Shown: positions 15,508 to 40,749 of the stretch, piece by piece
How positions within the stretch are numbered: position 1 is the stretch's first letter
Layout of the letters: the number at the start of each line of letters is the position of its first letter
Source of the DNA: Cylindrotheca closterium
Taxonomy: Eukaryota > Bacillariophyta > Bacillariophyceae > Bacillariales > Bacillariaceae
Length of the DNA stretch: 64,000 bases
Assembly (NCBI GenBank): GCA_933822405.4
Contig: CAKOGP040000446.1
Span: forward strand, 306,737-370,736
Direction of reading: 5' to 3'
Translations under genes and position numbers: made by a program
Notes under the pieces: generated by a model
Told to the model about the DNA's origin: nothing
What the model saw: the letters and a program-made list of their open reading frames with translations, nothing else
The model's database searches: none

Positions 15508-16208
15508 AAGAAGAAGAAGAACGACAATCGTGGATCGTTCCCCCTTCACAGCTAGCTATCTAGCTAGTAGCATGCATACTAGTACTGCAGAACCGAAACA
15601 AGCCATACTGGATCGTCCATAGTAATAGAACGGTAGGTCGTAGATATCAAATTGTTCAACATTAGATGTATTGTACATTTCTATTTCTATTCCCAAAGCC
15701 AAAGTCTTCCTCTCTATAGGAAAAAAACAGAACCCCCTCGATAATACCTACCTACAGTACATCGATCAACATGCCGGTACCACCAGGTACCGGTATGAGA
15801 AGATGAGAACTCTGAAACAAGTAGTCGAAGGGGTCGAAATCAAGATCGCGTAGAACTGGTAGAGATTTCAACGTAAATAACTGTCACGCAGACATCACTG
15901 TATCCATCGAAGACTTCGACGAAAAAATTATAATTTGGTCGGTGGATGATACGGTCAGCAGCATCTCAGCATCAGCATCAGCATCTCCTCCCCTTTCAGC
16001 GTACTGTAGCAATCCATATCGACCAATTACTCGACTTGACAGAAGATACATAGTAAACGACAGCTTGCTTACGCTATACTTCACACTGGAGAACAGTAGT
16101 ACAGTTGGAAGTTCAGCAAAATCGATCCAAAAATATTAAAATACTATCTTCACTCTGCCAACAACATCCTTAGAGAAGCATATACAATTCGCCAATACGA
16201 ATAAAAAG
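15508..16208. other. Intergenic between two PDZ-like genes
   Basis: No gene is seen. The features are a CTAGCTA-rich segment (15550-15572), a GGTACC-rich segment with TACCGGTA at 15788-15795, and an AGCATC repeat near 15960-15985. It should hold the promoter of the large PDZ array gene. Confidence 0.45.
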
Positions 16209-19200
16209 ATGAAGGAATTCGAAGTTACAGTAAAGAAAGAGAGTCCGTCGACTTATTTTGGTCTGATGCTGGCACAAAAGACAGGATCGTCTCAGATTAT
16301 TGTCAGGGACGTGGCTCCGAAAGGTGCCTTTGCCAATACAAAGATTGTACCAGGATTGCAATTGTTACAAATCAATGGTGAAACGGCGGATTCGGTTCAG
16401 GCAGCTGTTCAAACGCTCAAGTCGGCCCCCATTGGAAAGGTGACTCTTGTGGTGCAAGGTTTGGTGGCTACCGCCCACAAACAAGACAAGGATGCCAAGA
16501 TTGGCCTTTCGCTTCAAAAGTTGACAAGATCAGATGGGATTTCGGGACCAGCGGAACTTATCATTGCCAGCGTTTCGGAAACTGGCATTTTTGCCAAGTC
16601 GGGATTGCTCAAAGGATATCGGATAAGTACCATCAATGGAAAAGCCTGTCCTTCCCTGTTGAGCGAGGCCACCACCATGATACGAGACGCTACCGGTGAC
16701 GTGACCGTGGTGGCGGTGCAATCTGAAATCAAACCCTGTAAAAAGGCTTCGCTGGGTGCCTATTTGCTAAAGCATCACGTTTCCATGGGCGATTCTACTT
16801 TTGCATCGGAGAAAACTGTCAATGGAGAAGAGGCTGAATTCACTATTGAACCCAACTCGGAGGAAGTGATCGAACGAGAATTGAACAGTATGCCAATTGT
16901 CCACGACGGGGTTGTTGTGGAGGAGCAGCAAGGCGCCGTATTCGATTCCGAGTATGGGGAGCCAGAGTATACCATTGAACCCAATTCAGCAGAAGCTTCC
17001 GAACGAATGTTGTATACTCCCTTCAGCACGGAAGAAGAGGTGGAAGATGGCGTGGTAGATTCCGAATATGGTCAGGTGCAACATCATCACCATCATCATA
17101 TCAATGAAGTAACAACCACACTGTCAAAACGATTTCCAGGAGAAAAGGTTGGCATTGCGCTCAAGAACGTCAAGGAACCCAGGAGTGTCATTGTCAATCG
17201 GTTGGTGAAGGATGGTCTAGCGATACGTTCCCGGTGCCCCTTGAGCCTCGGTCAAACCATTCTGTACATTAACGATCAAAAATGCCCACCATCGGCCAAA
17301 CACGCCACGGCACTGGTTTCAGAAGCTCCCAGAACCATCACCATCATTGCCCGGAATACCAAAGTCACAGCCTTCAAAAAGACGGCCAAGACGAAACTTG
17401 GAATCAAGCTTCGGTCCTCGAAAAAAAGTCCCCGGGTGACTGTGGAATATGTAGACCCACATGGGCTGTTTGGCCGTAGCATCTTGTCCAAGGGACAAAC
17501 GGTGGCCGCCATTAATGGCGAAATTTGTCCCGACAATGCGCTGGATGCCATTGAGATGCTAAGATCCACAGTGGGTACCGTTTCCATCGAGGTTGGATAC
17601 AAGGGGTTGTTGTTGAAACCACCAAGACAGGGGATGGACAACTTTCCTCCCATTGTGGCGGCGACGATTGAAGAACCAGAATTAGTCATAGAAGAAGAAG
17701 GAGAAGAAGAGAGAGGAGTCCAGCAGGAACAACAAGTGCCCGAACCCGAAATTCTCGGAACACGGTCAATCGTTTCGAACAAGCAAGCTGGCAAATGGAT
17801 TGGTGTGAGTTTTGCAAAGACGGACGGCATGATCACGGTGTGCAAAATCCAAGACGAAAGCCCACTTCAGAATTCAGAACTGCAAGTGGGTCACGCAATT
17901 GTTGCCGTCAACCACGAAGCTTGCCCTGAGTCAATTACAGAATTGATTTCCAAGATCCAACGATCGTCCGGAGAATTAGTGATTACTTCATCACCAGTCG
18001 AAGGAGCGAGTGAGGTACTTGCAGCAGTGGCCCGACAACCCAAAATATCCAGCCCAGGCAGCACGATACCAAATAAGTTGCTACCGGGGCAAGTTGTTGC
18101 AAAGATCACCAAGAGTACGAAGGAAGACAAGATTGGAATCAAGGTGGTTCGGTCCTTGCAGGATCGGATAGCGATTAGCTCGATTACAGAAGGTAGCCTT
18201 TTGAGTACAACCGACCTTGCTCCTGGGCAGTTCATTGTGTCAATCAATGGAATACCATGCCCTCCCACCAAGGACGAAACAGTAAAGCTCATTCGGGATA
18301 GTATTGGGTCACTTGAAATCGTTGCCTCCAGTTCGATGGGTCTGGCAATAAAGCCAACGGTGGCTACAAAGGTTGGCATTACGATTGGCAGAACAATTTC
18401 AAATGAGATGATTATCATTGACGTTAAGAAAGGGTCCATCCTGGAAAGCGACGCGGTTTGGGCTTTGCGTCAAGACCAGCGTGTCGTTTCCATCAACGGT
18501 GTGGATTGTCCTGATAATACACAAGACGCCATTGCATTGATTCGAAACTGCGTTGGGGACCTGACCGTTGTGGCCGTCGACCGTTTCAAGCAGCAGACTT
18601 TGGGAAACTCGGAAAATCAGAGCTCCTCTGCAACGGTGCCCATTATCGAGAAGTCGCCTCAGAACGGAGCGAGATCAATGCCTGCAAGGCGCGAAGAAGC
18701 GCCTGGATTTTCCATTCCCGTCAACATTGCGAAATCACCGCAAAACGGAAGTGCCACCCCTGAGTTTAAGGAAATCCAAGCTGTGGCCTACGACAAGCAG
18801 GAGAGTGACATGTTAGGTTTGTCCATTGGCGTGACACAAGACTATGCTTTTGTCAACCATATATCCGCAGATTCACCGTTTGTGAACACGGATTTGTGCG
18901 TAGGACATCGGATTACAAAGATTGATGGCGAGGACTGCCCATTGCCCTTGTCAGATGCTGTGGATCTTTTTGCACAACATGTGGGCACAATGACAATCGA
19001 TGCGAAAGAAAAGATTGTTTCTCCCGGTCAAGTTTCTGCATCAATAGTGAAGCGGTCGCAGGAGACCAATAGTGGCGTTGGCTTTGGAGAATCTGCTCAA
19101 GGCCGTGTCGTCATCAGCAAAATTGATCCGAAAGGCTTGTTTGCCGACTCTGCACTACGAGTAGGCCAAGTAGTTGAATCGATAAATGGAAGGGGCTGTT

Positions 19201-20066
19201 TCGATGCGGTTGCAGCGTACGAGACCCTGGTGTCAGCGTCAGGGAAAGTCACAATCATTGCATCAGCTACGGTGGCTAGCGCTTTAAAGCAGAATATTGA
19301 CCAATCCACGGGCATTTTGCTTGGTCAGTCGGTTGATGGAAGAGATATCATTGTTCGAGGCGTTGACGAAAGTGGAATATTCGCAAATAGCGGCTTGAAG
19401 ACAGGCCAGTGTGTGGTTTCGATAGCTGGGGTCAGTTGCCCGCGAAGTCTTGCCGAAGCTGAAGGTCTGATTCAAGACCGTGTCGGAAAGCTGACCATTG
19501 TTGCACTTGACACAGTCGGCAATTCCCTGGAAAATGCGAACGGATACACACCAGAGACAAACCCCATTATCACTGTATCAGTCTACAAGAAAAACCAAAA
19601 TTCAAAAGTTGGAATGAAGATGAGAAAAGGGATACAAGACGGCAAAGTCGTTGTCAGTGGTGTGAGTGAAGACGGCCCCATGGGAGGAAAAGGACTTGAA
19701 GTGGGAATGTATATTATTTCAATCGATGGGATACCATGTCCGTTGGATCCAAAGACAGCTACGGGTATAATAAAGGAGGCGACGGGGCACTTTGCAATCG
19801 TCGCTTCACCAACTGTTGCCTCTATATCGAAGAGGTCAAAGGACGAGAAACTTGGAGTGACGCTTGCACGGACTCCAACTGACGACATTGTGGTCCACAG
19901 TATTGCTAATAACAGCGCTTTCAAACATACGGATTTGCAGGTTGGACAGAAAGTCGTTTCGATCAACCGAAAGAAATGCAGCGGCCTCTTGGACGAAGCA
20001 ATAAAAACGCTCGCAGACAGTGTCGGGTCTGTTACCATTATCGCCCTAGATACAATAAAACTGTAA
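16209..20066 (+). CDS. Giant array of about 12 PDZ-like domains
   Basis: A 1285-aa single-exon protein with no signal peptide or membrane span. I count 12 repeats of about 85-90 residues, each with the pattern (V/I)G(I/L)xL or equivalent, then an (I/V)xxG(x)(I/L)F-type segment, then GQxVxxINGxxCP, an A-x-x-x-I/L helix and GxxTIVA. Repeats 1-2 are followed by an acidic spacer (about 205-305) with a duplicated TIEPNSEE/TIEPNSAE block, a DSEYG motif and a His6 run, then repeats 3-12. The hallmark of the family here is the Cys-Pro after the ING turn. PDZ domains bind C-terminal peptides; the canonical GLGF loop is replaced by IG(I/L/V)xL-type sequences, so ligand class is unclear. A scaffold function is inferred. 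Confidence 0.85.
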   Translation: MKEFEVTVKKESPSTYFGLMLAQKTGSSQIIVRDVAPKGAFANTKIVPGLQLLQINGETADSVQAAVQTLKSAPIGKVTLVVQGLVATAHKQDKDAKIGLSLQKLTRSDGISGPAELIIASVSETGIFAKSGLLKGYRISTINGKACPSLLSEATTMIRDATGDVTVVAVQSEIKPCKKASLGAYLLKHHVSMGDSTFASEKTVNGEEAEFTIEPNSEEVIERELNSMPIVHDGVVVEEQQGAVFDSEYGEPEYTIEPNSAEASERMLYTPFSTEEEVEDGVVDSEYGQVQHHHHHHINEVTTTLSKRFPGEKVGIALKNVKEPRSVIVNRLVKDGLAIRSRCPLSLGQTILYINDQKCPPSAKHATALVSEAPRTITIIARNTKVTAFKKTAKTKLGIKLRSSKKSPRVTVEYVDPHGLFGRSILSKGQTVAAINGEICPDNALDAIEMLRSTVGTVSIEVGYKGLLLKPPRQGMDNFPPIVAATIEEPELVIEEEGEEERGVQQEQQVPEPEILGTRSIVSNKQAGKWIGVSFAKTDGMITVCKIQDESPLQNSELQVGHAIVAVNHEACPESITELISKIQRSSGELVITSSPVEGASEVLAAVARQPKISSPGSTIPNKLLPGQVVAKITKSTKEDKIGIKVVRSLQDRIAISSITEGSLLSTTDLAPGQFIVSINGIPCPPTKDETVKLIRDSIGSLEIVASSSMGLAIKPTVATKVGITIGRTISNEMIIIDVKKGSILESDAVWALRQDQRVVSINGVDCPDNTQDAIALIRNCVGDLTVVAVDRFKQQTLGNSENQSSSATVPIIEKSPQNGARSMPARREEAPGFSIPVNIAKSPQNGSATPEFKEIQAVAYDKQESDMLGLSIGVTQDYAFVNHISADSPFVNTDLCVGHRITKIDGEDCPLPLSDAVDLFAQHVGTMTIDAKEKIVSPGQVSASIVKRSQETNSGVGFGESAQGRVVISKIDPKGLFADSALRVGQVVESINGRGCFDAVAAYETLVSASGKVTIIASATVASALKQNIDQSTGILLGQSVDGRDIIVRGVDESGIFANSGLKTGQCVVSIAGVSCPRSLAEAEGLIQDRVGKLTIVALDTVGNSLENANGYTPETNPIITVSVYKKNQNSKVGMKMRKGIQDGKVVVSGVSEDGPMGGKGLEVGMYIISIDGIPCPLDPKTATGIIKEATGHFAIVASPTVASISKRSKDEKLGVTLARTPTDDIVVHSIANNSAFKHTDLQVGQKVVSINRKKCSGLLDEAIKTLADSVGSVTIIALDTIKL

Positions 20067-21183: not shown

Positions 21184-21739
21184 GGTTGTTATACTATGTA
21201 GACTGAGTCTTTCTCAAACGGCAACAAGAAAACTGCGATGTACACACACACACGAAACTTGAAAGTGGGCAATCCAAAGATGGAGATTTGGGGATTCGGT
21301 CTAAATGTGGATGCGTTTCAACGTTGCAGAATGTATTTTCGATGCACGATGTCATTATGTGACAAGCCAAATCACAGAATCTTGACGCGCGCAACATTTA
21401 TTGCCACTACGAATCCAACGGCCAAAGCGTGCGCGAGATATCATTTTTTGTGATATTTTTATTAGGTAAAGGTTTTTTACGCAAAAGGTAGGATTTGACC
21501 CGTTCGACCGTGACGAATCCTCGGCGAGCAAAATATAGTTTGGCTTGGATCTTTTAAAAAAAAAGAGTATCCACTGCTAAAATATGTGCACCATATGCTT
21601 GAAATCGTACCCATCTTATCGCATGATGCTGTTGGTTCGGTCGTTTTGAAGCAAGGCAATTTGCGCTCCAGCAGTAGTACGACCCCCCCCCCCCACTGCT
21701 GACAAGTTTTCCACTTCTACAGCATTGATACATGTCAAA
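21184..21739. other. Intergenic, no supported gene
   Basis: Upstream region of the minus-strand coiled-coil gene. It contains short ACAC and poly-A tracts and a C12 run near 21683-21694. No gene is supported. Confidence 0.45.
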
Positions 21740-22345
21740 ATGTAAGTAAATGTCTTTTGCCCACAGGTGGCACCATTATCTGGTTCGAAGTCCTGACGCT
21801 ATTTGTTTCCACGTTCAATAATTTCAAACCACCGCATGATCCTCTTTGGCCCTGGAAGAACATGCGTGTTTTATTCCTCTCCATCTGTATCATAGTATGC
21901 TGGACGTAGTATACATCATTATTCATTGGAAGTTTCTAGCGTCAATGAACGAGTCATGGCCAAGAAAACAATAATAATTAGTAGCTTGTTGGGCCCACCA
22001 CCAGCATTGGTGCTTCATGGTCAATTGAAGACGATCAATCGCAGACGATGGCTGATGCCATTATCAGTATCGCCACCCTTCACCATGACTGTCCACTGAC
22101 TACTTCTTTTTTCTTTTTGTTGATCAAAATATTCTTGAAACCACCTTCTTCTTTTCCCCTCTTGCTTCTTGTTCGTCAATTGGTGTTTCTTGTTTGGTGG
22201 ACATTTTAATGCATCGCTTCGGAAATGAATCCAAACACAAGTTTGGTGGGATGTCGTATCTAGCATCACACTGCCCAGTGATGAATGATTTCTCGCTGGC
22301 GAGGATCTCTTTTTGCTATACTTTTGGGTTACCTCAAGGGGCTAT
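21740..22345 (-). pseudogene. Decayed copy of the 3' part of the gene at 26096-27070
   Basis: This stretch aligns in the same orientation with about 25910-26490. Shared landmarks are the GGAAATGAATCCAAACA block (22221 vs 26380), CAGTGAT...ATGATTTCT (22276 vs 26434), ATACTTTTGGGTT (22318 vs 26479), CAATCGCAGACGATG (22036 vs 26179) and GTCAATGAAC...AGTCATGGCCAAGAA (21942 vs 26114). The translated match includes DTDNG(I/V)SHRLRL. Indels break the frame, and the upstream two-thirds of the parent gene is missing. The homology continues into the 3' flank, so it is a DNA-level duplication rather than a processed copy. Confidence 0.75.
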
Positions 22346-22500: not shown

Positions 22501-22629
22501 CACGAAGAAAGTGAGTGAAATGAGACCGCACGTATTTTTTATAATATATATCGTACCGCCATAAAATGCAACAGAAAATGGACCACATGATGTCCGCCTG
22601 ACTTGACTGAAGAAGGAATCATCAAGGCT

Positions 22630-25562
22630 ATGGACCAATTGACTACTGGAGAACAGCAGGAGATTGTCAAGCGACTGCAGAATCAATTGAATTTCAATCG
22701 CGAACATCCCTTTGGAGTTTCACTGTTGGCACTGGACAACCAATACAATCGTCGACTCTTTCCCAACGGACCTTTTGGAACTATTGATGTTGCCGAGTCG
22801 GATTGCCTCCATGGAAGTTGTCCCCACTATTCCAAACAAGCAGATGTGAAGTTGGAAAATGCCAGAAAGACTCCCATTCATATTCTGATTCCTGCCTTTA
22901 GAGATAAGTTATGTTCTCGGACATTGCATTATGCCTTTACGCAGGCAGAAAATCCATCGCGACTGTTTATTCGTGTGATTGATCAGGTCCAACCACGATC
23001 AGATCTGGAAGACGACGCTGGGTGCTGGGAACTATATTGTGAAAAGCACAATCGTAATTGCAAAGAGTACGGATCGCAAGTCCGAATTGTCAAGATTGAT
23101 TCGGCTCAATCAATGGGCCCAACCTATGCTCGGTCGAAATTGTCTGCCATGGTTCATTGGGATTACATCTATCGTAATGAGTCTGATGAGATTGATCTGC
23201 AGCCTGTCAATGAACAAGATTTCTGTATGAATGTAAGATTCTTCATGTCATGGTGAATGAGTTTCTACTTATCAGTAGTCGTGTCTGTCGCCTTCAAGGT
23301 TCCAATTCTGATTGCATATCACCTTTTTCCCATTTGCAGATCCACAGTCGCATGAATTTCAGCAAGCGCTTTGACACACGTCTGATTGAAATGCATCATC
23401 GTACCAAGAATGATTATGGCGTCTTGAGCACCCATGTTACAGGGATGGAATCCAACGACCAAGATGGACGAATCGTCCCCAACATGTGTACGGTGGCCTT
23501 TACTGAGAGCATTCATCATTGGGGAACGAAACAATGCAGCTTCCTTACCCGTCCAAAGCTGACCAATGCCATGTGGGGAGCTGGTTTGAGTTTTCAGAGA
23601 TGTCATGGAGAACTTGTTGTTCCTACCGATCCGTTTTTGGACAATGCATTTGACGGCGAAGAGGTTAGCCGTGGGATTCGATTCTTTACCCATGGATACG
23701 ATATGTATACTCCAGACATTGTCTTGGTAAGTCACGATTACAGCACCGATGCAGAAAATCTAGTGATGGGAGTAAAGCCTCGTCACGATGAAGACGACAG
23801 CGAAGAAGAGGATGAAGAAAAGGACTTGAGTCTGGGCAAAAGCGCATGGAAATGGGTTGAAGAAATCGAGAAGTCCCGTCTCGGGCTCGCTGTGTTTGGT
23901 ACAGATCGAGTCAATATGCTTTTGGGAATAGGATCCCATCACAACAATACGGAACAAGAACGCAAAGAGCTGGACTTGATCCGCAACTCTCGTTTTGGTC
24001 TGGGGACGAAGCGAACGATGGATCAAGTTAGAGAATTCACTGGAATCGATCTGCTGAATAAGAAAATGGAATGCAACAAGTGTGGCAACAACTATTGGGT
24101 TCCGTTTGAAGAGTCTCCCAACTATGGCGTACAGGAGCTTCTAGAGCGAGGAAACATTGGTAAGGCACAGCGGCAGAAAACGGATGTTGTTGTAGAGGAG
24201 CCAAATAGAGAAGGCCAACGGGAACAGAAAATCGAACAGTTTCAAGGACTGGTTCAAGGAATAATGGGAAACGATGGTGCTATACAAACCGAATGCACAT
24301 CTGAATTCCGTCGATTGCTCAGTATCGAGAAGAACCCACCTATCCAACAAGTTATTGATGCCGGGGTAGTACCTCGTTTTGTTGAGTTCCTCCAGCGCGA
24401 TGACAGCCCAGCATTGCAATTCGAAGCTGCTTGGGCACTGACCAATATTGCATCCGGAACTCGTAAACACACAAAGCTGGTTACGGAAGTTGGCGCCGTT
24501 CCAATCTTCGTCCGCCTTCTAACGAGTCCAAACGCCGATGTTCGTGAACAAGCTGTTTGGGCACTCGGAAACATTGCAGGTGACTCACCACCATATCGCG
24601 ATTTTGTGCTTCAAGCTGGCGCAATGGAGCCTCTGCTTCAGCAACTTCACCAAAAATCCAACCTTTCAATGCTAAGGAATGCTATCTGGGCACTTTCCAA
24701 CTTTTGCCGTGGAAAGCCACAGCCAGATTTTGAAATTGTCCGACCCGCCCTTCCTATTCTGTCGCAACTGATGTTCAGTGGGGACGAAGAGGTTTTGACT
24801 GATACCTGTTGGGCCCTTGCCTATTTATCTGGTGGCCCCAACGATAAAATCCAAGCAGTCATTGATGCTGGGGTAGTCCGTCGTCTTGTCGAACTCCTCC
24901 TCCACCCTTCTCCCTCAGTTCAAAGACCTGCTCTATGCACAGTCGGAAATATTGCAACTGGAAACGAGACTCAAAATCAACTAATCATCAACGACGATGT
25001 CCTTCCTAATTTGTTGGCTCTTCTGTCGAGTCCCAAAACGAAGATCAGAAGGGAGGCATGCTGGGCCCTCTCCAATATTCTCGCAGGAAACCAGGAACAA
25101 ATCCAAGCTGTCATTGAAAGCAATATCATCCCTCCCCTTATTCAATTGCTCACTAATGGTGAATTCGAGATTCGAAAAGAAGCAGCTTGGGCAATTTCAA
25201 ATGCAAGTTCAGGTGGAAATAGCCAACAAATCAAATTTCTTGTCCAACAGGGTTGCATCCGACCACTCTGTGATTTATTGACCGTAAACGACCCAAAGCT
25301 TGTAACTACTCTTCTTGAGGGCTTGGAGAACATCCTAAAGGCCGGGGAAGAGGAAGCGAATGCATCTAATGGGCAGAATCAAATGGCCGTACTCATCTCA
25401 GAAGCTGAGGGTTTAAAAAAAATTGAAGACCTCCGACAACGCTCCAATGATGATATCTATGAGAAGTGTATCGAGATTATGGAGACTTACTTTGGTGTAA
25501 AGGAGGAAGAAGAAACGAATTCGCTTGCACCAAATACTAGGGAGCCCCGTTCAGCATTATAG
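22630..25562 (+). CDS. GNT1-like glycosyltransferase fused to importin-alpha ARM array
   Basis: Exons are 22630-23232 and 23340-25562, with a GTAAGA...GCAG intron of 107 nt; 941 aa. The first ATG in frame is 22630, although the frame is open from 22591. Residues about 50-470 match the GlcNAc-transferase family typified by Dictyostelium Gnt1 (PF11397): ILIPAFRD, MGPTYARS, FFTHGYDMYTP, GLGTKRTMDQVREFTG. The family's D-S-H motif in the acceptor segment appears as H-S-R (MNIHSRMNF), so catalysis may be lost. From about 515 the protein is importin alpha: the post-IBB tail QGLVQGIMGND, then ten ARM repeats with the W...N ligand-binding ladder (WALTN, WALGN, WALSN, WALSN). The N-terminal importin-beta-binding domain is absent, replaced by the glycosyltransferase. 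The join lies inside one uninterrupted frame with no intron nearby. Confidence 0.8.
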
Positions 25563-26095
25563 TCACCTTTCAAGTCACTGAAGGCTCACAGACCAAAGCG
25601 GAAGCGCCCTTCTTGGCTGGAGATGCTGGACTGATAGAAAACATGGAAAAGGTCAACTCCACAGGCCAAGTGGAATCCCGATTCTTTGGTGTCTTTTCAT
25701 GTGTAGTTGTTCTGCTGTGTTTCGTCTTTTCGAAACAAGGATCAAAAAAAGGAAAGAAGAAAAAAGACCACAGGAAGAAGAGTTGATACTCGGATTTTTT
25801 TGGAAATCTTGGAGTGAGCTTGAATCAATCAATCGAGTTGTCATCGTGACAAATGGAGGAATCAAGGGTCTGCTTCGTTATCCTGCAACCTTATGTTGAC
25901 AAACTTGATACGAGTCAAAAAATGTAAATAGATTCATTTAATGCCCAGGTAGCAGCATCATCTGATTCGAAATCCTAATGTAATTGATATTGTACTATAC
26001 ACGAACCAGATGATCCTCTTCAATCCTGAACCATACATTATGTAGTATCCCCTTCCATTTGTATGACATTATGCCAGATGTAGACCACGAAATTA
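25563..26095. other. 3' flanks of convergent genes
   Basis: No gene is seen. From about 25910 the sequence is homologous to the 3' flank of the decayed copy at 21740. It includes an A/G-rich stretch at 25740-25780. Confidence 0.5.
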
Positions 26096-27070
26096 TCAGC
26101 TTGCAGCGTCTGGCGTCAATGAACTAGTCATGGCCAAGAATACAATAATGAGTGTTGGATCCACCTTTGGCTTGATGGTCAATCGCAGACGATGACTGAC
26201 GCCATTATCGGTGTCAGTATCGTCATCGTCATCATGATCGTTTTTCATGAATTCTCCAATGGCCACTTCCTTTTTCTTATCGTTCGTCAAAATAATCTTG
26301 AAGCCAGCATCTTCCCCCTTTATCAATTTGAATTCTTGGGGTGTTTCATGTTTGGTCGACATTTCTATCGCTTCCGACAAGGAAATGAATCCAAACATCA
26401 TCTTGGTGGGACGTCGTATCTTGGTACTTCCCCAGTGATATATGATTTCTTTGGCCTCGGGTCCCTTTTTGCGATACTTTTGGGTTTCATAAAGTGGTGT
26501 CTTGCCATACAACTCCAGATCCATTGGTTTGAGCTTTTGGACCGCCTCGGTTTGTTCCAAATGACTGGCAAAATCGGTCGATTTGTGCTTGTAACAGGCA
26601 AGTTCCAGGCCGGTTTCTGCATTGACAAAGGCCCAAGGAAACTTGTCATCCCCGGTCTTTTGTGCAATAAAGGATGCTACTGGAGTCGGAGGTAATTTTT
26701 CTTCCTCATCATTATCATTATCATCATCTTCTTGCAAGACTTGAATTTTGGTGACACCTGCTGCAGCAACAGTAGTAGTAGTGATCAATTGAAAGCTTCG
26801 CTCCACTTTTCTAGAAATAGGAAGAGCTTGGCCCAAGACACTTTTGCGTCGTTGGTTTTCTTCCTTTTTGGCTTGCATCACATTGCTCATGCTGGAAGCT
26901 GGTGAGATCACCCAATTGTTGCGAACATCGGGGCTCAAGGTTTTGGCGGGTTTGCTCGGGTCGGGCCGTTTGGCGTAGGGCTCATGGTGCTGAGGAGGTA
27001 CTTCCTTGTCTCCATATGCCGTGAAACCCTCAAAAGGAGGAGAGAAGGAGTGGGCAACTTTGTCGCTCAT
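26096..27070 (-). CDS. Unrecognised 324-aa protein, parent of the nearby pseudogene
   Basis: A single-exon protein starting MSDKVAHSFSPPFEG. The N-terminal third is Pro/Lys-rich and probably disordered, followed by an acidic DDDNDNDEEE block (about 115-124). Residues about 135-300 look like a compact beta-rich domain (PWAFVNAETGLELACYK, KEIIYHWGSTKIRRP, GFKIILTNDKKKEVAIGEF), and HRLRLTIK leads into a short hydrophobic tail (DPTLIIVFLAM). I do not recognise the family. A degenerate duplicate of the last third and its 3' flank lies 4.2 kb away, on the far side of the fusion gene. Confidence 0.75.
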   Translation of the reverse strand: MSDKVAHSFSPPFEGFTAYGDKEVPPQHHEPYAKRPDPSKPAKTLSPDVRNNWVISPASSMSNVMQAKKEENQRRKSVLGQALPISRKVERSFQLITTTTVAAAGVTKIQVLQEDDDNDNDEEEKLPPTPVASFIAQKTGDDKFPWAFVNAETGLELACYKHKSTDFASHLEQTEAVQKLKPMDLELYGKTPLYETQKYRKKGPEAKEIIYHWGSTKIRRPTKMMFGFISLSEAIEMSTKHETPQEFKLIKGEDAGFKIILTNDKKKEVAIGEFMKNDHDDDDDTDTDNGVSHRLRLTIKPKVDPTLIIVFLAMTSSLTPDAAS

Positions 27071-27559
27071 TGTAAATATGATTGTTGTGTTGGTGGTAGT
27101 GCTGATGACTGCTGATGATGACTGCCTTACACCTGATATGTGGTTTTGTTGATGTCTTCTTCTTCTGATATGATGATTTTGTCTCTTCTCCGACTATCAA
27201 TTTCAAAAGCTAAAGTGTTATGATACTAGTATGCTTGCTACCTGATGCACCGTTAGGAAACGTGAGTTTGCTGTTGCAAGTCTTGGATGAATTATAATAT
27301 AGAGGCGTATCTCTTTCAATCATGCAATAATAACGCTGGAGTGATCAAGGAATGCGTAACATATCATAAAAACGTCACGGCAAAAGACATTTTTCATTCT
27401 TGCAGGACTACTTCGAATTAATTTGAAATTGACTGAAATGACCATTAACTTCCGGGTCTCCAAAGACGATCTTCTTTTTCAATATCTCATTTTACAAAAC
27501 CGTCACACATCAAAAATACTCTGTTTGACGACGTGAAAACACACATACAGCATCCGAAG
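27071..27559. other. Divergent intergenic region
   Basis: No gene is seen. It is AT-rich and should contain the promoters of both the minus-strand gene ending its 5' side at 27070 and the hydrolase at 27560. Confidence 0.5.
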
Positions 27560-28708: not shown

Positions 28709-28970
28709 AAAAGATAGAAAAAATGATTTCGTTGTTAGACGGCATACATCAGTGTCATCGTCATTCTTCACATGCATTTTGTTCATGAACTCGGAGCAGT
28801 CGAATGTATCACGAACGTACGCGAGCGAGCACGCAATATAAGCGCGATATCCAATATCTTTTCAAGTGCGTATATTATTATCGTCGATACCGTATACCGG
28901 TATACCGTAGATTTCGCATCATCATCGTCATCTATACCGGTAATATATGTGAGGCATTTTGACAAACTCG

Positions 28971-31900
28971 ATGGACGATACAGCAGAAGACATGATATCA
29001 AATGAAGATGAAAGTTCGCCTCAGCAAACGATGGGTGATGAGAGTGAACAAGAAGAACAAGAAGAACAAGAATCCTCAAAGGATGAAGAACAAGTTATCG
29101 AATTTGTGTACGAAAGCGAAGATCAAGAAATACCAAAAGCCATCCAAAATACCATGAAGAAATTGATTGTGCGTGGGCCTGTAAAGACCATTGGAAAGCG
29201 CGCCTTTGAGAAATGTGAAACGCTGGAAGAAATTGACTTCACCGAGGCAACAGCTTTAGAAACCATTGGAAAGGAGGCCTTTTCCAAGTGTCGCAATCTC
29301 CTTGCTTTCCAGTGCCCGTCCAACGTCAAAATTATTGGACAGATGGCCTTTGACGAGTGTACAAACCTGAGAGAAATTGATTTTAGTGAGGCAACTGCTT
29401 TGGAACTCGTTGGAAACGCAGCCTTTAAGGAGTGCCGTAGTCTTCTTGCTTTCAATTGTCCATCAAATTTGAAGATCATTGTAAGGTTTGCCTTCATGGG
29501 ATGTGAAAATCTAAAGGAAGTTGATTTCACCCAGGCAGCAGCTTTGGAAACGATTGGAGAGCAAGCTTTTTGTGACTGTTCGAGTCTTCTTGCATTCAAG
29601 TGTCCATCTAACGTCAATTTTATTGGAGATATGGCCTTTCAGGAATGTGAAAATCTAAGGGAAATTGATTTCAGCGAGGCTACAGCGTTGGAAGCAATTG
29701 GAGGACAGGCTTTTTTGAAATGTCCTTGTCTCCTTGCTTTCAAGTGCCCTCCCAGCGTCAAAACTGTTGGAAGACAGGCCTTTGAGAACTGTGAATAGCT
29801 GAAGGAAGTTGATTTCAGCGAGGCAAATGCTTTGGAAACGATTGGGGAACGAGCCTTTAACGAGTGTCGTAGTCTTCTCGCTTTCAAGTGCCCATCTAAC
29901 GTTAAGACTATTGGAAATAAAGCCTTTGGTGAATGTGAAAGGCTAAAGGAAGTTGATTTCAGCAAGGCAACAGCTTTGGAAATGATTGGAGAGGAAGCTT
30001 TCATCTATTGCACTAGTCTTGGTGGTACTTTCAAGTGCCCACCCAGCGTCAAGACGATAGGATACCAAGCGTTTAGCCAATGCGTGAACCTGAAGGAAGC
30101 TGATTTCAGCAATGCCAGAGCTTTGGATACGATTGAAGCGATGGCCTTTTACCAGTGCTGGGATTTACATTCTTTCAAGTGCCCATCGAACGTGAAGACT
30201 ATTGAAAACCAAGCCTTTGAGAGATGCTATCGGCTGAAGGAAGTTGACTTGAGAGAGTCGACAGTTTTGGAGACGATTGGAGAGGAAGCCTTCTACAACT
30301 GCGGTTGTCTTGAGAAGTTCTCTATCCCTTTCAACGTGTCTGTTGTTGGGAAGAATGTCCTTAAAAGATGCAATAATCTAATATCTTTGGACGTTCCTAG
30401 TGCAAATCCAGCCATCCACATTCGGTTCTACACACAACTCGGCGAAGAACAAAAGCATTTGATAAACTGGGATAATGTCGTGAATCTCTATGCCTCCAAT
30501 CCAATACAGAGATCCGAGTTGGTGGAGAACTTAGGCAAAGATATAACAGTTCTCGAAAAAGTCAGAGCAAGCTATATTGGTTCAATTATTGATGGTACGC
30601 GGCGCTTACATTCTATTCCGGAACGCAACGGGTGGTTGAAATTCTTGGCAAACAATGCAGCTGACGAAGAGGACCCATATATGATCAAGTTGTGCGACTA
30701 TCTGAAAGAGAAGGCCAATTTGAAAAGAGTTCGACAACTCGCCGACATCAAAGATCAATCCGCCCGCGTTGCAAAGTCGGTGGCACCCAGACACATCCAA
30801 AAAGTGTTTGAAGAACGGCTGTTCTTTCTTGGCCGCTATGATATTGAAAAAGGACCACCCATTCACCAGTCGGCAACCTGTGTTGTGGTCAAGGCAACGG
30901 ATGCCAAGATGATGGAATACTTTGAAGAGAAGTACAAATCGTATGAAGGAAAAGAAGTAGGCAAAGATGCCTTCAAGGCGATATTGGGCAAGGTGGAGCT
31001 CATTCCACACGACGACAAGAACATCAACCATTTGTTCCAACGGGCAGATGTCGACAAAAATGGAATTATTTCCAAAAAGGAGTTTGTTGAATTTTGCTTG
31101 GACGAAATTGGTTGCAATGTCGTTCTAAAGTTTATGCGGAACAAGGATCAGTTTCACCGAGAAGTGGATCGTCGGAAAAATAATGGTTTGGATTCGAAAT
31201 ATATTGTCGGCAGTATTGGAAGCCATGATCAAGAAAAGAGCGATACTGGATTGGTCCAATCACTGAGGAACTCGTTCTTGCAAGAAGATGGTGCCGATAC
31301 GTCGTTTTTAGAGCAAGATGAGGTCTCTACAGAATACAGAAGCGTATTGGTGATGCCTTATGGAGATCGGAATTTGGACACAATATTTCGAAGTGAGCGC
31401 CCTGCACCAATTGCTGTCCGTAACTTGATGACCGAAATTGGAGAGGCATTGCTGCACTTACATGAGAAGGATATCGTCCATGGTGACATCAAGATGTTGA
31501 ATGCGGTGAGAACAAATCGACGGCTATTGTTGATTGATTTGGATGCATCGACGAAAGTTGGTGACTACATCGGGTCGAAGTTTTCTTCTGGCGTACTTCC
31601 CCCGGAGATGATCCATGAGCTGAAAACTCGAAAGGAATTGGATCTTTACGAGAATTATGTTGAGCAAGGAAGGAACAGCGAGGACGAGAAAGATAAGAGG
31701 AAAGTTTTGACCACCACTGGACAAGATGTTCGACACTTCGTAGTTCGCTCGTTTTGGGAGGAGACGCAAGAAGTGAAATCATGGGACGAGTTCAATGAAA
31801 GGTACAATGCTGTGCAAACGTTGGTGCCAATTAAAAAAGCTGACTTGCCGTATGAGCTGCTGGCTGCTCATACGAGTCTAGATGTTTGGTCTTTTGGTGT

Positions 31901-33734
31901 GTTGTTGTTTGAGCTGATAACAAAGGAGTCGTTATTTAAAGTGAACAATGAGGACGATATCACAGATGGTGACGCGATGAGACAGCTACACGACTGGAAT
32001 GATGAAGATACGAAGAGCAAATTGAAGCTCAAAGTAACAGATGCCTATGGTCGTGATTTGCTGCAGAAGATCCTTCGCCGCGATATGAAAGATCGCTTGA
32101 CGATGCAGCAAGTGCTAGCTCACGACTACTTCAAACCCGATGCTGTGAAATCAGAATCAGAAGCCCTGTCACGAATTGAGAAAAGAGCGATGGAGAATCA
32201 AGAAATCATCAAAGTCAATTTTGCTCAAATCCACAAGTCTTTTGGACAAATCCACGATTCGCTAAAGCGTGTTATGAGATATCAAGCTGCGGCCAACGAT
32301 CTTTTGAAACTGATCTTCAAAGGCGAAAAGCCACAACCAAAGTATTTTGTGATTCTTCCAGTAGCCGAAGAAGTCAATAAAGAGAAGGGTTTTTCGCGGT
32401 TTATTACAGCAATGAAGAAAGCCTCAATGCCAAGCAGCATACTCACGACCAAGGCAATGTTATATTTCATCTGTCCACTAACGCTGCAGCCAGTTGTGGG
32501 AACGGATGGTGAAGCGATTGGCTATGATATCGATATGCCTCAGGGTTGGATCAAGAAATATGGACCTGCTATTCTCATTGGATTGAAGGTTGTTCAAGTA
32601 GGACTGGCAGTAGGCCGCGGTTTTGGCCTCCCTCTTCCATCGCTAAGTGGGGCTGAAGAAGGTTTAAAGGAGACCTCCAATCTTTTTTCAGAGATGCAAG
32701 GTTTGTTGGTGGATGAAATGGGCGGCGATAACGAGGAGGATGGCCTAGCTGATGTGTTGCTGGAACGATTCACGGATCGAATCGATAGCGCAGCTTCGGC
32801 CGAAGGTCCAGCTTTGACAAAGAAACATTTGAACAGAATTCAGAAGTCGTATGATGGCATTGGATTACTCATTAAAGACGAAAGCTTCGAGCGTTGCGGT
32901 TTGACAATGGCAGTCAGTAAGGATGAGACAGAATATGTGCATCCAGAAGTGGAGCAACTCTTTGAAAAGTTTGGATCGAAATGCTTGGAGATGTCCATTG
33001 AGCAAAGGGAAAAGGAAAATGCCACATTGTCTGCGGTGGCTCGAAATACAAACAGAGATACTGAGCACGGATTCTCTGCCAATGGAGATGTTGAGAACAA
33101 GGCCGAGAGTGCGGTTTCCGTAGAATCGTCAGCCTGTATTCCTGAACATGAGATGGCCCAACAGCAAGAAAACCTTGGGACGAAGCAACTCCAATCAATA
33201 AGCGCCGATAGTGCGGTAATTGCGCGCTTGGAAGACGTGAAATCGAAGTTAACGACGTTGGAAGACGTGAGTTTGAAGCTGTCAAAGTTTGAAGGATTGA
33301 ACGCAAAAATCGACCATATGAACTATGCTATTCAGAACAAGTTACAAGGGATACCACAGGGATCCACCAATGTGATTCACAAAGGCTGGCTGCGTATTCA
33401 AAGCCGCCGGTCTCCCTTTCTTTGGAATGCAAGGTATGTCGTGGTCTACAAGAATGGCAGCATTACGCACTATCCCAATGCTGGTTCTACTTTTCTTGAA
33501 GTCAAATGGATAGATAGAAAGGATGGAACCATTGAGCTGCGTTCTGAAGACAAAATGATTGCGAAAGCCAAGCTCTCGGCCCGCTGTTCTAGTACGACTA
33601 CCGACTGGCTTAAAGGGAACACCTGGAATTCCGATTATGAGCGATTTGCCACCAATTCGAGTCGCAAAGCAGCAGTTGCATCTCGCACCGATCTCACTGG
33701 GAATGTCATCAAAATCGAAACTGCCGATTGCTGA
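28971..33734 (+). CDS. LRR_5 (BspA-type) repeat-protein kinase-PH protein, with an in-frame TAG
   Basis: From the ATG at 28971 the frame spans 1588 codons including one internal TAG at 29796-29798 (codon 276) and the final TGA. Residues about 60-475 are eight pairs of LRR_5 repeats (TIGxxAFxxCxxLxEVDFSxATALE / TIGxxAFxxCxxLLAFKCPSNVK). The TAG replaces the residue after CE in one repeat where neighbours have N, T or R; the next codon resumes LKEVDF. A kinase domain follows (about 620-1050): putative ATP lysine in CVVVK, VHGDIKMLN loop (HGD for HRD), LIDLDAS (DLD for DFG), PPE, and DVWSFGVLLFE. An EF-hand loop (DVDKNGIISKKEF, about 694-706) is inserted in the kinase N-lobe. The C-terminus is a PH domain (GWLRI...WNARYVVVYKNGSI, from about 1472). 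Either a real gene with a nonsense allele or readthrough, or a young pseudogene. Confidence 0.75.
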
Positions 33735-34126
33735 GAATCATTTTTTAATTTTTCTTTACAACGAACTATCCAACCACTTACAGTAGATGGCGTATCATGA
33801 GTTTGTACCTAGATGCTAGTGGCCATTCATTCATTCGTTTGGTCAACAGGACATTGCAGTGCTCGTTACTTCATACCGGCACCATACTGTATGCATGTTC
33901 AAAGCCAAAATGAGTCTATCAGAGTACCATTTTTGAAGCGAGCTAGGAAAATATATTTACTTATGCGGTCCATCGCTACTCCGATTTATTTACTTATGGC
34001 ATCGAAAAATCACTCACAAAAAAGAACCAAATTTTACATCCTTGAAAAAAAAAAACGCCTTGCGATTAACCACCGACAAAACTTGTAGTTCCACCCAACA
34101 ACAAAACAAGGTGGTTGACAAGTGAA
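33735..34126. other. Intergenic before the PDZ cluster
   Basis: No gene is seen. ATTTACTTATG is duplicated at about 33956 and 33986, and an A11 run lies near 34045. It should contain the promoter of the gene at 34127. Confidence 0.5.
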
Positions 34127-36439
34127 ATGCCGCCGCAGCTCACTGAAAGAATCACCGTAGCGGTGTCAACCAAAGACTACAGTCCTCGGAAAAGATGGCC
34201 ACTTTTGACATCAAAGAAAGGGCAACTACAAGATCATCATCCAACCACTACTTCTACTCCTCCAGATGATTATAGTTCACTTCACGTCAAAGATCGAACG
34301 TCCAGTCACCTCCGCAAAAATCAGATGAAGCTAGCTGACTCAAGAACATTAAGATTCGACGAACCTGAACTTCAAGACCGACAACAAGTGGTGGTTGAAA
34401 TCCAGCTTGAGATGGACCAGCTCATTGGGAAACCAGGACTTGTTTTGGAACGAACCAGAGGGACAACTCTACTCCTGGTCAACACGATTCGAGAAAAAGG
34501 GTGGTTTACGTCCACTGCGCTTCGAGTTGGAATGGCCGTTCTATCTGTCAATGGTGTTCCAATGGCTGGCCGCACTCCTTCCAAAGTCATCAAGGCGCTC
34601 TGCCAGGCACAAGATGAGGGGAAGCTATCACTTGTGGCAGGCTGTTATACCAAGCCGGAAACCAACAAATGTCCCCCAGAAAAGGATGAGTCAAATATTG
34701 CGGAATGTGGAAGTATCGAAGTGAAGTTGACCAAAGATAATGTTGCCATTGAAGGTTCTTCTTCTACTACTTATAATGTGCCAAGATATTCTCGATTACA
34801 CACAATTGTCACAAAGAAGACAAAAGAAGATGTCTTTGGAATTACATTCCGAAAGAACGCCAGAGATGCACCTCTTATCATCAAATCATTTGCGAAAAAA
34901 GGAAAGTTTCAAGGGTCAGAACTTTGTCCTGGAATGGTTGTAATTCAAGTGAACGAGAAGGATGCAACATGGATGAATCCACGAGAAGCCGTCGAAGAAC
35001 TTCAAAATGCTGCGCCAGGTGAAGTATCCATCACTACCGAAGGCTACACTGGGAAGGCTTTCAAAGCTATCGCCGGCGATTCGCTCGGCCTTTCAGTGAC
35101 CAGTTCTTCGTCTCGCGAAGGAGTCTTTATTGTTGGCATTGACCCAGCTTCCGAGTTTGCAAGGTCCGAATTGCGCGCTGGAATGCAAGTTATTCTCATC
35201 AACGGAAAGCCTTGTCCACTCAAGGCAGAGGATGCAGTGGATCTATTGGATGGAACCGAAGGGGAGGTTACCATCCTTGCTACTTTAGCCTTTCTGGACG
35301 GCGACAACATCACAGTGTCCGATATGACATGCGACTCGGAGCATGATGTACATGAAAGTATGATGAATACCATTGGAGCCGACTTCCAAAAAGATAACTT
35401 GCAAAGTCCTCGACCAGAAGAAGAAGTCATGATACTGAGAAAGCTTCCAACAAGACGGAAGACGACTGACGCCATGCTCTCCTCCCATCCAATTGTGAGC
35501 TGTTTTGGTGGATCAATGCCAAAGAAGGATCCAAGAAAGCAAAGAAGTGAGCTCGTGCACATCTCTTTGCAGAAAGAACTCCGAAAGACCAAACCAGGGA
35601 TTGTCCTTTCTAGGAAAAAGGACAGTTTGGTGGTCAAGGAAATCCGCAAGGACAGTTGGTTCTCGAAAACCGCTCTTGAAGCGGGCATGGTTCTACTTGC
35701 CGTTGACAACAAGTCCGTTGTTCAGAAGGATGTCGAACACGTCTTCAAGCTTTTCCAAGAAGCCAGAAAGTCGGGACGAATGCTACTAACAGCAAGAAAA
35801 GGTGAAAACGGAATACACCAAGATCAAAGGCTATCCCGAATCCAAGCAATTGCATACAAGAAAACACCTACTGCACCGATTGGAATTACATTTTCACGGG
35901 CTGACTCGACATCTCCACTGGTCGTTAAGGAAATTTCTGAGACTGGCATCATGAAAGGCAGCATGATCCAACCTGGAATGGTTGTATTGCAGATCAATGG
36001 TCGGCGTGCCTCATGGCTCCTCAGCCCTGCGGAAGCATCCGCAGCTATTCGACATGCACCGGTAGGGCGTATCTCTATTACAGCAGAAGGCTTCTGTGGA
36101 ACGGCATACAAGTCGAGGCGAAATGAAGGATTCGGTTTGATTGTTAAGAACTCATCGAGTCGTGAAGGACTATTCATCTCGCATATCAAGGAGGACAGTC
36201 CATTTGCTTTCTCTCCATTGAAACCAGGTATGCAGATCCTTATGATCAACGGTAAGCCTTGTCCCTCTACTCTGAAAGCAACCGGCAAACTACTACGAAA
36301 GTCTGGTGAGAAGGTGGAAATTTTGGCGACATCAGCCTTCCAAGAGGGATTCAAGGTGACGGTGGATGACTTGGCATCCCGACAAGAAGGTCCATTCTTG
36401 GACAGCTATTTCAAATGCCTTGTGTTCGACTTCGACTAA
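34127..36439 (+). CDS. Six-PDZ-like protein built as a duplicated A-B-C triplet
   Basis: 770 aa, single exon; the ATG at 34127 is the first in frame. Residues 1-85 are basic and disordered. Six PDZ-like units follow in the order A-B-C-A'-B'-C'. A and A' share KPGxVLxR, (W)FxxTALxxGM and V(x)AV/SVN. B and B' share GITFxxxxxxxPLxxK, PGMVVxQ(V/I)N and APxGxxSITxEG. C and C' share GLxVxxSSSREGxFI, LxxGMQxxxINGKPCP and VxILAT. The match extends through the linkers, so the protein arose by internal duplication of a three-domain block. No membrane segment is seen. Scaffold role is inferred from the fold. Confidence 0.8.
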   Translation: MPPQLTERITVAVSTKDYSPRKRWPLLTSKKGQLQDHHPTTTSTPPDDYSSLHVKDRTSSHLRKNQMKLADSRTLRFDEPELQDRQQVVVEIQLEMDQLIGKPGLVLERTRGTTLLLVNTIREKGWFTSTALRVGMAVLSVNGVPMAGRTPSKVIKALCQAQDEGKLSLVAGCYTKPETNKCPPEKDESNIAECGSIEVKLTKDNVAIEGSSSTTYNVPRYSRLHTIVTKKTKEDVFGITFRKNARDAPLIIKSFAKKGKFQGSELCPGMVVIQVNEKDATWMNPREAVEELQNAAPGEVSITTEGYTGKAFKAIAGDSLGLSVTSSSSREGVFIVGIDPASEFARSELRAGMQVILINGKPCPLKAEDAVDLLDGTEGEVTILATLAFLDGDNITVSDMTCDSEHDVHESMMNTIGADFQKDNLQSPRPEEEVMILRKLPTRRKTTDAMLSSHPIVSCFGGSMPKKDPRKQRSELVHISLQKELRKTKPGIVLSRKKDSLVVKEIRKDSWFSKTALEAGMVLLAVDNKSVVQKDVEHVFKLFQEARKSGRMLLTARKGENGIHQDQRLSRIQAIAYKKTPTAPIGITFSRADSTSPLVVKEISETGIMKGSMIQPGMVVLQINGRRASWLLSPAEASAAIRHAPVGRISITAEGFCGTAYKSRRNEGFGLIVKNSSSREGLFISHIKEDSPFAFSPLKPGMQILMINGKPCPSTLKATGKLLRKSGEKVEILATSAFQEGFKVTVDDLASRQEGPFLDSYFKCLVFDFD

Positions 36440-38881: not shown

Positions 38882-39159
38882 TGCTACTATTGGACAATGT
38901 ATCATAATCACTATTTTATTATAATGAATCTACTGCATCATCAAACTATGCTCTATCTGCCTTATTCAACGACTGCATGCGCTATTCTTCAAGTTTCCGC
39001 GCTATGCAGTACGCTGGTGCGTTACGAATATATAGAGCTAAATATTTAGCACGTGCCTAAATCTTGTCACATTTTGCGATTGTCAACGCACGAAACCAAA
39101 TATAATATACGTTTGGAGCACCACATCGAACCCAATCCCCTCCGCCGTCTATTGTAACA

Positions 39160-40749
39160 ATGGGTTTCCTTCGAAGGAGCAAGAAGAATGAATGTCAACA
39201 ACATGGGAGTGTGGTGGAAGCGGTAGTACGTAAAAAGTCAGAGAAAGTGAAATATGGAATCGTCTTCCATCGCAGCAAGCCAAATATCCCAACAACGATA
39301 GAATCCATTCGATCAAAATGCTTGTTTACTCGTAAGGGCCTTTTACCAGGAATGTATGTTCTCGAAGTGAATGGGCAAGACGCGACCTGGAAGACTCCAA
39401 AAGATTGCGCTCGTCTTCTTAAGAGTGCACCTGTCGGATCAAATGTATCGATCAAAGCTGCCATTCCAAAGACCATCAGAGTGAAGAGAGACTCAGAAGA
39501 GAACAGTTGGGGATTTTCCATCAAGAACTCTACAAAACGAGAGGGGATTTTCATTGACAATGTCGCACCAAAGAGTATTATGGCTTCTTCAGGCTTGGAG
39601 CACGGAATGCTGATTATTAAGATCAATGGCAAGACATTTCCGAATGAAATCAAGGATGCGGCATTGGCATTGAGAGCGAGCGGGAATTCCATTGAGATTA
39701 CTTTGGTGCAGCTAGAGGCTCAATTGGATTTTGATCTTGATGATATCAGTACTGCTACTGATATCCAGCAGGAGGCAGGTGACGAAATGGAACCAGGTAA
39801 ACAAGAAGAAGAAAAGGCGACTGGAGGTGATATTATTGAAGGATCAGGAGAAAAAAATGAATCAAGTAGCCACCCTCGAATATCTACTGCAGAAGCTCTT
39901 GAGTATTCTGGAGACAAAGTCAAAGAAACAAGTAAACAGAAACAGACGACTGCTGTTTTGCAAACAGTGACTGAGAACCGCGACGACGTGACGAACGCCC
40001 CCACGAGCAAAGTTGAGCCCTCTACAGCCCGTGAACCACCAATGGTGCAAGAATTTGATATTGACATGGACGACTTTTCATTTGCCGAGAGCGAAAGCAA
40101 AATCCCTATCCAAAAGGACGAGAACAGTCCTTCCGGGTGGTTTTTCAGGAACTCGAAGAAGGAGGAGGAATGCTTCGACCTTGATGATCAGTTTCCCGAG
40201 CGCTATACAAAGAATAACAACCCACTGTTCCAAAGTGTTCTCCCTCCATCAAGGAAACAATCTAGAACCAGCGAAGTCGTGTCACAAGTAATGCAGCTTC
40301 GAAAGCTCCGCAAACCTATTCCCAAAAGTTCCATCGCGACCGTACAATCTCCCGTCGATGATGAGAAATTGAACCGACGAGCAATCATATTCGGACTGAA
40401 GAAAGAAGCTGCAGTACCGACGGTACAACGGTTTGATCCAAAGACACGCCGACCTAGATTCTTCAGGGGGGCGTCCATATTGTCGCTCAAATCTCGATCA
40501 AGCAAGGTCACAAAAGAGGAGAGACTTGGAGAACAAAATGGCCACAATTCTTCCACCTCAGTCCAGAGTCTATTCGACATATTATTGAGTTTTCAGGACA
40601 CACTATGTGCAACACTGGTATCTGGTCCGACTCAAGACTCCACGGCGGTAGCAAATGACACAAAGTCTCGTAAACGAACAGTGATACCGGTACGAAAAGC
40701 CAAAGCCGAAAATCCACGCGAAATAGAGGAGCAAGTGTTGGAGTTGTAA
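39160..40749 (+). CDS. Two-PDZ-like (B-C) protein with long acidic/disordered tail
   Basis: 529 aa, single exon. Unit B (about 17-105) has KYGIVFHRSKPNIPTTI, LPGMYVLEVNGQDATW and SAPVGSNVSI. Unit C (about 108-187) has WGFSIKNSTKREGIFI, HGMLIIKINGK, with TFP in place of the usual CP. From about 190 the protein is disordered: an Asp/Glu-rich part with repeated DxDDxS/FSFAESES motifs, then a basic part with many Ser-Arg/Lys sites. Phospho-regulation would fit the composition but is not shown. It is a member of the tandem PDZ set. Confidence 0.8.
   Translation: MGFLRRSKKNECQQHGSVVEAVVRKKSEKVKYGIVFHRSKPNIPTTIESIRSKCLFTRKGLLPGMYVLEVNGQDATWKTPKDCARLLKSAPVGSNVSIKAAIPKTIRVKRDSEENSWGFSIKNSTKREGIFIDNVAPKSIMASSGLEHGMLIIKINGKTFPNEIKDAALALRASGNSIEITLVQLEAQLDFDLDDISTATDIQQEAGDEMEPGKQEEEKATGGDIIEGSGEKNESSSHPRISTAEALEYSGDKVKETSKQKQTTAVLQTVTENRDDVTNAPTSKVEPSTAREPPMVQEFDIDMDDFSFAESESKIPIQKDENSPSGWFFRNSKKEEECFDLDDQFPERYTKNNNPLFQSVLPPSRKQSRTSEVVSQVMQLRKLRKPIPKSSIATVQSPVDDEKLNRRAIIFGLKKEAAVPTVQRFDPKTRRPRFFRGASILSLKSRSSKVTKEERLGEQNGHNSSTSVQSLFDILLSFQDTLCATLVSGPTQDSTAVANDTKSRKRTVIPVRKAKAENPREIEEQVLEL

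Follow-up and report, generated by a model that had tools for sequence, protein, structure and literature searches.

Introduction

Importin alpha without its importin-beta-binding (IBB) domain is a familiar laboratory construct. Once the IBB is gone, the groove that binds nuclear localization signals (NLSs) is not autoinhibited and importin beta is not recruited through the missing domain. PF11397 glycosyltransferases form a separate family, which we take to be of the CAZy GT60 type, that is, the family of Dictyostelium Gnt1 with its role on cytosolic Skp1. Outside laboratory constructs, one report describes a mouse importin alpha 7 allele that produces a protein lacking the IBB (PMC3066239).

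Here we focus on a gene of Cylindrotheca closterium that joins these two families. It lies on the plus strand of a 64,000-nucleotide stretch of contig CAKOGP040000446.1 (positions 306,737 to 370,736), which we call the window. Its coding sequence (exons 22630-23232 and 23340-25562) predicts a protein of 941 residues in which a PF11397 glycosyltransferase (GT) is followed by a complete importin-alpha ARM array, with no IBB domain. Domain order, in-frame join and missing IBB had all been claimed in a first-pass annotation, and each is confirmed here; a public gene model, P0001, has this protein as well. The gene is a real, lineage-specific chimera. Its product may be a soluble, IBB-less, NLS-binding protein with a pseudo-glycosyltransferase domain, a competitor, trap or scaffold for cargo as opposed to an NLS-targeted glycosyltransferase, and we give this reading about an even chance.

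Structure of the fusion gene

The features of the locus are as follows.

22630..23232, plus strand: exon 1, N-terminal part of the PF11397 GT, residues 1-201 (paralog comparison, Pfam)
23233..23339, plus strand: intron 1, GTAAGA...TTGCAG, 107 nt, at a position shared with the paralog on contig C548
23340..24170, plus strand: GT part of exon 2, residues 202-478; DNA homology to the C548 paralog stops at 24165
23343..23351, plus strand: HSR, codons 203-205, in place of the DxH metal-binding motif (alignment with relatives)
24168..24227, plus strand: spacer between GT and ARM, about 20 codons of unclear origin, residues 478-497
24228..25499, plus strand: importin-alpha ARM array, residues 498-921, aligning without gaps to residues 98-521 of P0086
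24936..24938, plus strand: codon 734 in ARM6, Cys where P0086 has Arg
25500..25562, plus strand: short C-terminal tail of the fusion and TAG stop; the GFG/TFDF end of P0086 is absent
25578..25786, plus strand: what is left of the C-terminal tail that belonged to the GT gene (a hydrophobic segment, then a basic end and a TGA stop); its frame is not that of the ARM array
24160..25583, plus strand: hypothetical in-phase intron, GTAAGG...GAAG, 1424 nt with a weak acceptor, which would excise the ARM array
21725..22341, strand not assigned: upstream of the fusion gene, degenerate copy of the 3' part of the minus-strand gene 26096-27193 (67% DNA identity), with five stops

The predicted protein is identical to P0001, in which GT and ARM are likewise joined; that model probably comes from the same strain or assembly as the window and is not independent evidence. 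Pfam finds no IBB domain (PF01749) in the fusion, while the canonical importin alpha P0086 scores 73.8 bits, and the search for a hidden IBB exon in the window returned a single 14-residue chance match (E 0.94). No NCBIfam match exceeded its cut-off for P0001, P0002 or P0086. An assembly chimera was also considered and is thought unlikely: the genome copy searched gave no second place for the ARM copy, which is a distinct paralog; sequence of one and the same GT gene lies on either side of it; and the public model is identical.

The glycosyltransferase half

The GT half is a clear member of its family, with a profile match of 129.5 bits against a curated cut-off of 21, and it is 78% identical to the C548 paralog. 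The DxH metal motif, however, reads HSR in the fusion, whereas relatives have DSH in 76 of 77 cases and DAH in the other, so that the D and the H are present in all 77. Around this motif, conserved columns are changed at 13 of 28 positions in the active-site blocks (blocks picked after the fact), compared with 1 of 95 elsewhere. Distant relatives with 11 to 31 changed conserved columns still keep both the D and the H. Since the DxH ligands are lost and changes at conserved positions cluster there, the GT half is almost certainly inactive. A candidate further metal ligand, H333, is retained together with its HDY context.

Taken over its full length, the domain is under purifying selection. The ratio of nonsynonymous to synonymous substitution rates (dN/dS) is 0.19 overall, two of eight blocks fall below 0.07, and the fold is predicted to be retained. 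With catalytic residues gone and the fold still constrained, this half would fit the pattern of a pseudoenzyme. Searched against PDB sequences, the relative P0002 had a single match of no significance (E 0.65), and nothing usable about the Gnt1 metal motif came out of the literature search.

The two ends of the domain also depart from the family. A C-terminal hydrophobic anchor is present in all 76 PF11397 homologs (P0002-P0077) and absent from the fusion product. Only 6 of these 76 have a hydrophobic segment within their first 60 residues, and these counts suggest that they are tail-anchored, cytosol-facing enzymes. Relative to the C548 paralog, taken from its assumed start codon, about 98 acidic N-terminal residues are missing from the fusion.

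The importin-alpha half

The ARM array is complete and matches P0086 at 351 of 424 residues (83%) with no gap. Its 73 replacements are mostly conservative and tend to avoid conserved columns, and the 424 codons contain neither stop nor gap where about four stops would be expected. Over 428 columns, the fusion shares 354 identities with P0086, which itself shares 416 with P0090 of Nitzschia inconspicua. The predicted superhelix is the same as that of P0086; the canonical C-terminal end of importin alpha is missing. Signs of constraint are thus seen on both halves.

The Trp/Asn array of the major NLS site is intact, with W566/N570, W608/N612 and W651/N655 as in P0086, which we place in ARM2-4. 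The cargo trap put forward in the first-pass annotation is thus viable as far as the sequence goes, with this site preserved and no IBB domain present. In the minor-site region (ARM6-8), W776/N780 and W818/N822 are retained, the TGND aspartate has become Glu 744, and the ARM6 Arg has become Cys 734, presumably, by motif position, the equivalent of Arg315 in mouse importin alpha. An ARM5 Asp is replaced by Gly. A published account lists G323, D325, W357, N361, E396, W399 and N403 as minor-site residues (PMC12871931); mapped by motif position, all of those listed there are kept in the fusion except Asp325, which is Glu.

Probable origin by insertion into a duplicate

The C548 paralog has the same intron position, and its corresponding exon goes on to encode a charged linker, a C-terminal hydrophobic segment and, last, a basic end. 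Window DNA matches this paralog over 22609-24165 (intron apart), breaks off, and matches again over 25590-25784; local alignment stretches the right-hand match to 25578. The interval between the two breaks consists of the ARM array with, on each side, some 60 to 80 bp of unclear origin. Because C548 homology resumes directly after the ARM stop codon, the alignment places the ARM segment inside the GT gene: in a duplicate of that gene, the linker was replaced or filled by a piece of importin alpha. The tail remnant beyond that stop codon, in another frame, differs from the paralog by 17, 17 and 19 changes at the three codon positions (dN/dS 0.60 over 61 codons) and appears to evolve in the relaxed manner expected of a fossil.

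In a maximum-likelihood tree, the fusion GT groups with the C548 paralog and P0002 (100/100), apart from P0005 of C. fusiformis; the first split among the three is weakly resolved (C548 + P0002, 81/46). The ARM tree places the fusion beside P0086, P0088, P0089 and P0200 of C. fusiformis, on a long branch, in no resolved order and with a placement that the tool itself calls unsure. P0086 and P0200 differ at 11 sites; of these, the fusion agrees with P0086 at nine and with P0200 at two. Since some of these states are ancestral, the fusion event is probably, not surely, younger than the split between P0086 and P0200.

Relatives and distribution

The fusion is seen in one species only, C. closterium. 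The protein searches scored the 8000 candidates with most shared words, and among the matches listed the same join, for which relatives were to be searched, did not appear. By precomputed Pfam labels, one of 77 GT matches carries Arm domains, namely P0001 itself. Among the best 120 of 5613 importin matches, none besides P0001 carries PF11397, and none of the best 120 of 3925 matches to a junction query is labelled PF11397 (its length limit excludes P0001). No report of such a fusion was found among the titles and abstract starts listed, and part of the literature search was aimed at one. Viral and genome contigs were also searched for the DNA of a canonical diatom importin alpha, and no relative was confirmed in them.

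The proposed look for a separate IBB-bearing importin alpha had a positive outcome. C. closterium has a canonical full-length protein, P0086, on a contig of 69,664 bases, and a second IBB-bearing gene on contig C371. Given these two, import probably does not depend on the fusion.

Twelve other importin-alpha records (P0093, P0133, P0168, P0188, P0191, P0192, P0195 and P0197-P0201, P0200 being from C. fusiformis) begin where the IBB ends or further on. They would be explained if gene prediction had missed a first exon coding for the IBB, and IBB absence in gene models therefore calls for checking. At L021 (1703-4216), an 837-residue frame encodes a divergent ARM protein resembling importin, whose ARM repeats are followed by a Cys-rich stretch that looks like a zinc finger (seen by eye, no Pfam match).

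Function or decay

We propose that a 5'-truncated duplicate of a tail-anchored PF11397 gene arose in the C. closterium lineage, and that its C-terminal linker took in a segment of the canonical importin-alpha gene that lacks the IBB and spans the entire ARM array. With its terminal stop codon, this segment would have severed the membrane anchor and left a soluble 941-residue chimera. Because the autoinhibitory IBB is gone, the ARM half would bind basic NLS cargo constitutively. The chimera should be unable to couple that cargo to importin beta and would therefore act on NLS proteins in the cytosol, as a scaffold, as a trap that holds them there or as a competitor for them. The GT half would be a folded pseudoenzyme; it would transfer no sugar and may have kept its binding to the earlier protein acceptor, or to some other partner. 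A more specific form of this proposal, which we put forward only tentatively, is that selection has kept the fused array as an NLS receptor of natural origin with no link to importin beta. As a soluble regulator it would capture NLS proteins, or deliver them to the protein that the pseudoenzyme once partnered, and would not import them.

Several results weigh against a functional chimera. Polarised replacements number 51 on the fusion GT branch and 12 on the paralog branch, and the terminal ARM branch measures 1.05 compared with 0.015 for P0086; both values would fit relaxed, decaying sequence too. Fourteen conserved GT columns are changed, where close relatives have 0-3 and the twelve highest, distant relatives 11 to 31. 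In the ARM half, 40 of 283 highly conserved columns are altered against a median of 0 in other importins (107 of 119 importin matches used, 12 dropped by length, with at least one plant protein, P0151, included), and the ARM6 Arg is Cys at codon 734. Selection may have constrained the GT half before the insertion took place, and dN/dS is not computable for the ARM side because the P0086 gene was not found in the genome copy searched (G000), which we take as incompleteness of that copy. Moreover, the junction query recovered no fragment of the fusion gene in its best 120 of 3925 matches, with identities of at most 83%.

The chief rival is therefore gene decay: an accidental chimera, weakly or not expressed and without function, whose frame is open mainly because loss is slow. 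The accelerated branches of both halves, the lost metal motif and anchor, the truncated 5' end with a degenerate partial gene copy on its flank, the relaxed GT tail remnant and the presence of just one member sequence among the collected proteins all agree with it. We nevertheless regard decay as rather unlikely, given a frame open through 941 codons, 73 mostly conservative replacements with no stop or gap in the ARM array, a GT dN/dS of 0.19 with two of eight blocks below 0.07, and only 1 of 95 conserved GT columns changed outside the active-site blocks. Alternatively, translation of the ARM half could begin at a separate start (Met 510, at 24264, is one candidate) and yield a short importin alpha lacking the IBB, the GT being a separate or truncated product. 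An in-frame Met does stand at the start of the array, and the mouse study reports that the IBB-less importin alpha 7 protein arises from a cryptic start in exon 3 (PMC3066239). The frame is continuous, however, and the public model joins both halves, which makes a separate product improbable.

Slimmer still is the prospect of two products, in which splicing of 24160-25583 would drop the ARM array and yield a GT with a membrane anchor, while the unspliced form is the fusion. The GTAAGG donor, not present in the paralog, sits at the left homology break, an in-phase AG sits at the right one, and the spliced frame is open through to the anchor and the TGA. Such an intron would nevertheless be 1424 nt long with a weak GAAG acceptor (11 pyrimidines in 20, versus 15 in 20 for the 107-nt intron 1), the tail shows relaxed evolution at all three codon positions, and the GT would lack its metal motif in both forms. 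Finally, glycosylation targeted to nuclear cargo, as suggested in the first-pass annotation, would require an active GT half steered by the ARM half to NLS-bearing proteins. The strong PF11397 match, the retained H333 with its HDY context and overall purifying selection on the GT would suit this idea, which is otherwise unsupported; with both ligands that all 77 relatives possess replaced, and changes to conserved positions centred on them, we consider it very unlikely and the least probable of the readings weighed here.

If the competitor, trap or scaffold reading is right, a natural gene making an IBB-less importin alpha, placed after a GT without catalysis and with a frame still open under rapid change, would provide a natural test of an NLS-binding array that cannot import. 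The fusion also illustrates a way in which insertion into a duplicate may create a pseudoenzyme and, with it, a novel arrangement of domains. Were it an unexpressed relic, it would be instructive as a chimeric gene only.

Other features of the window

For the minus-strand gene at 26096-27193, whose 3' part is echoed upstream of the fusion, Pfam gave no match at E 1e-4, and the genome search brought up nothing else that resembles it. At 28953-33734 lies a gene for a BspA-type leucine-rich repeat (LRR) and protein kinase protein, one frame over two open frames split by a single stop at 29796-29798. Pfam covers 29799-33731, and the LRR appearance of 28953-29798 was judged by eye; the stop may reflect a pseudogene, unusual splicing or a sequencing error. 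Three large PDZ-domain proteins are encoded within one 25-kb stretch (16140-20066, 34070-36439 and 39106-40749).

Comparison with known systems

Like canonical importin alpha (KPNA / SRP1 type, e.g., P0086), the fusion has a gapless ARM array of 424 residues at 83% identity, the Trp/Asn NLS groove and the predicted superhelix. Unlike it, the fusion lacks the IBB and the canonical C-terminus, has Cys for the ARM6 Arg, carries a GT in front and evolves far faster. With the PF11397 glycosyltransferases it shares the domain match, the intron position, 78% identity to the C548 paralog and a fold predicted to be retained, whereas DxH is lost, nearby conserved positions are changed, the anchor is cut off and the acidic N-terminus is missing. 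A third parallel is IBB-less importin alpha, i.e., laboratory constructs and the mouse alpha7 allele (PMC3066239), whose ARM array could in principle bind NLSs without autoinhibition or coupling to importin beta. In contrast to these, the C. closterium fusion is a natural gene in which an N-terminal putative pseudo-glycosyltransferase replaces the IBB.
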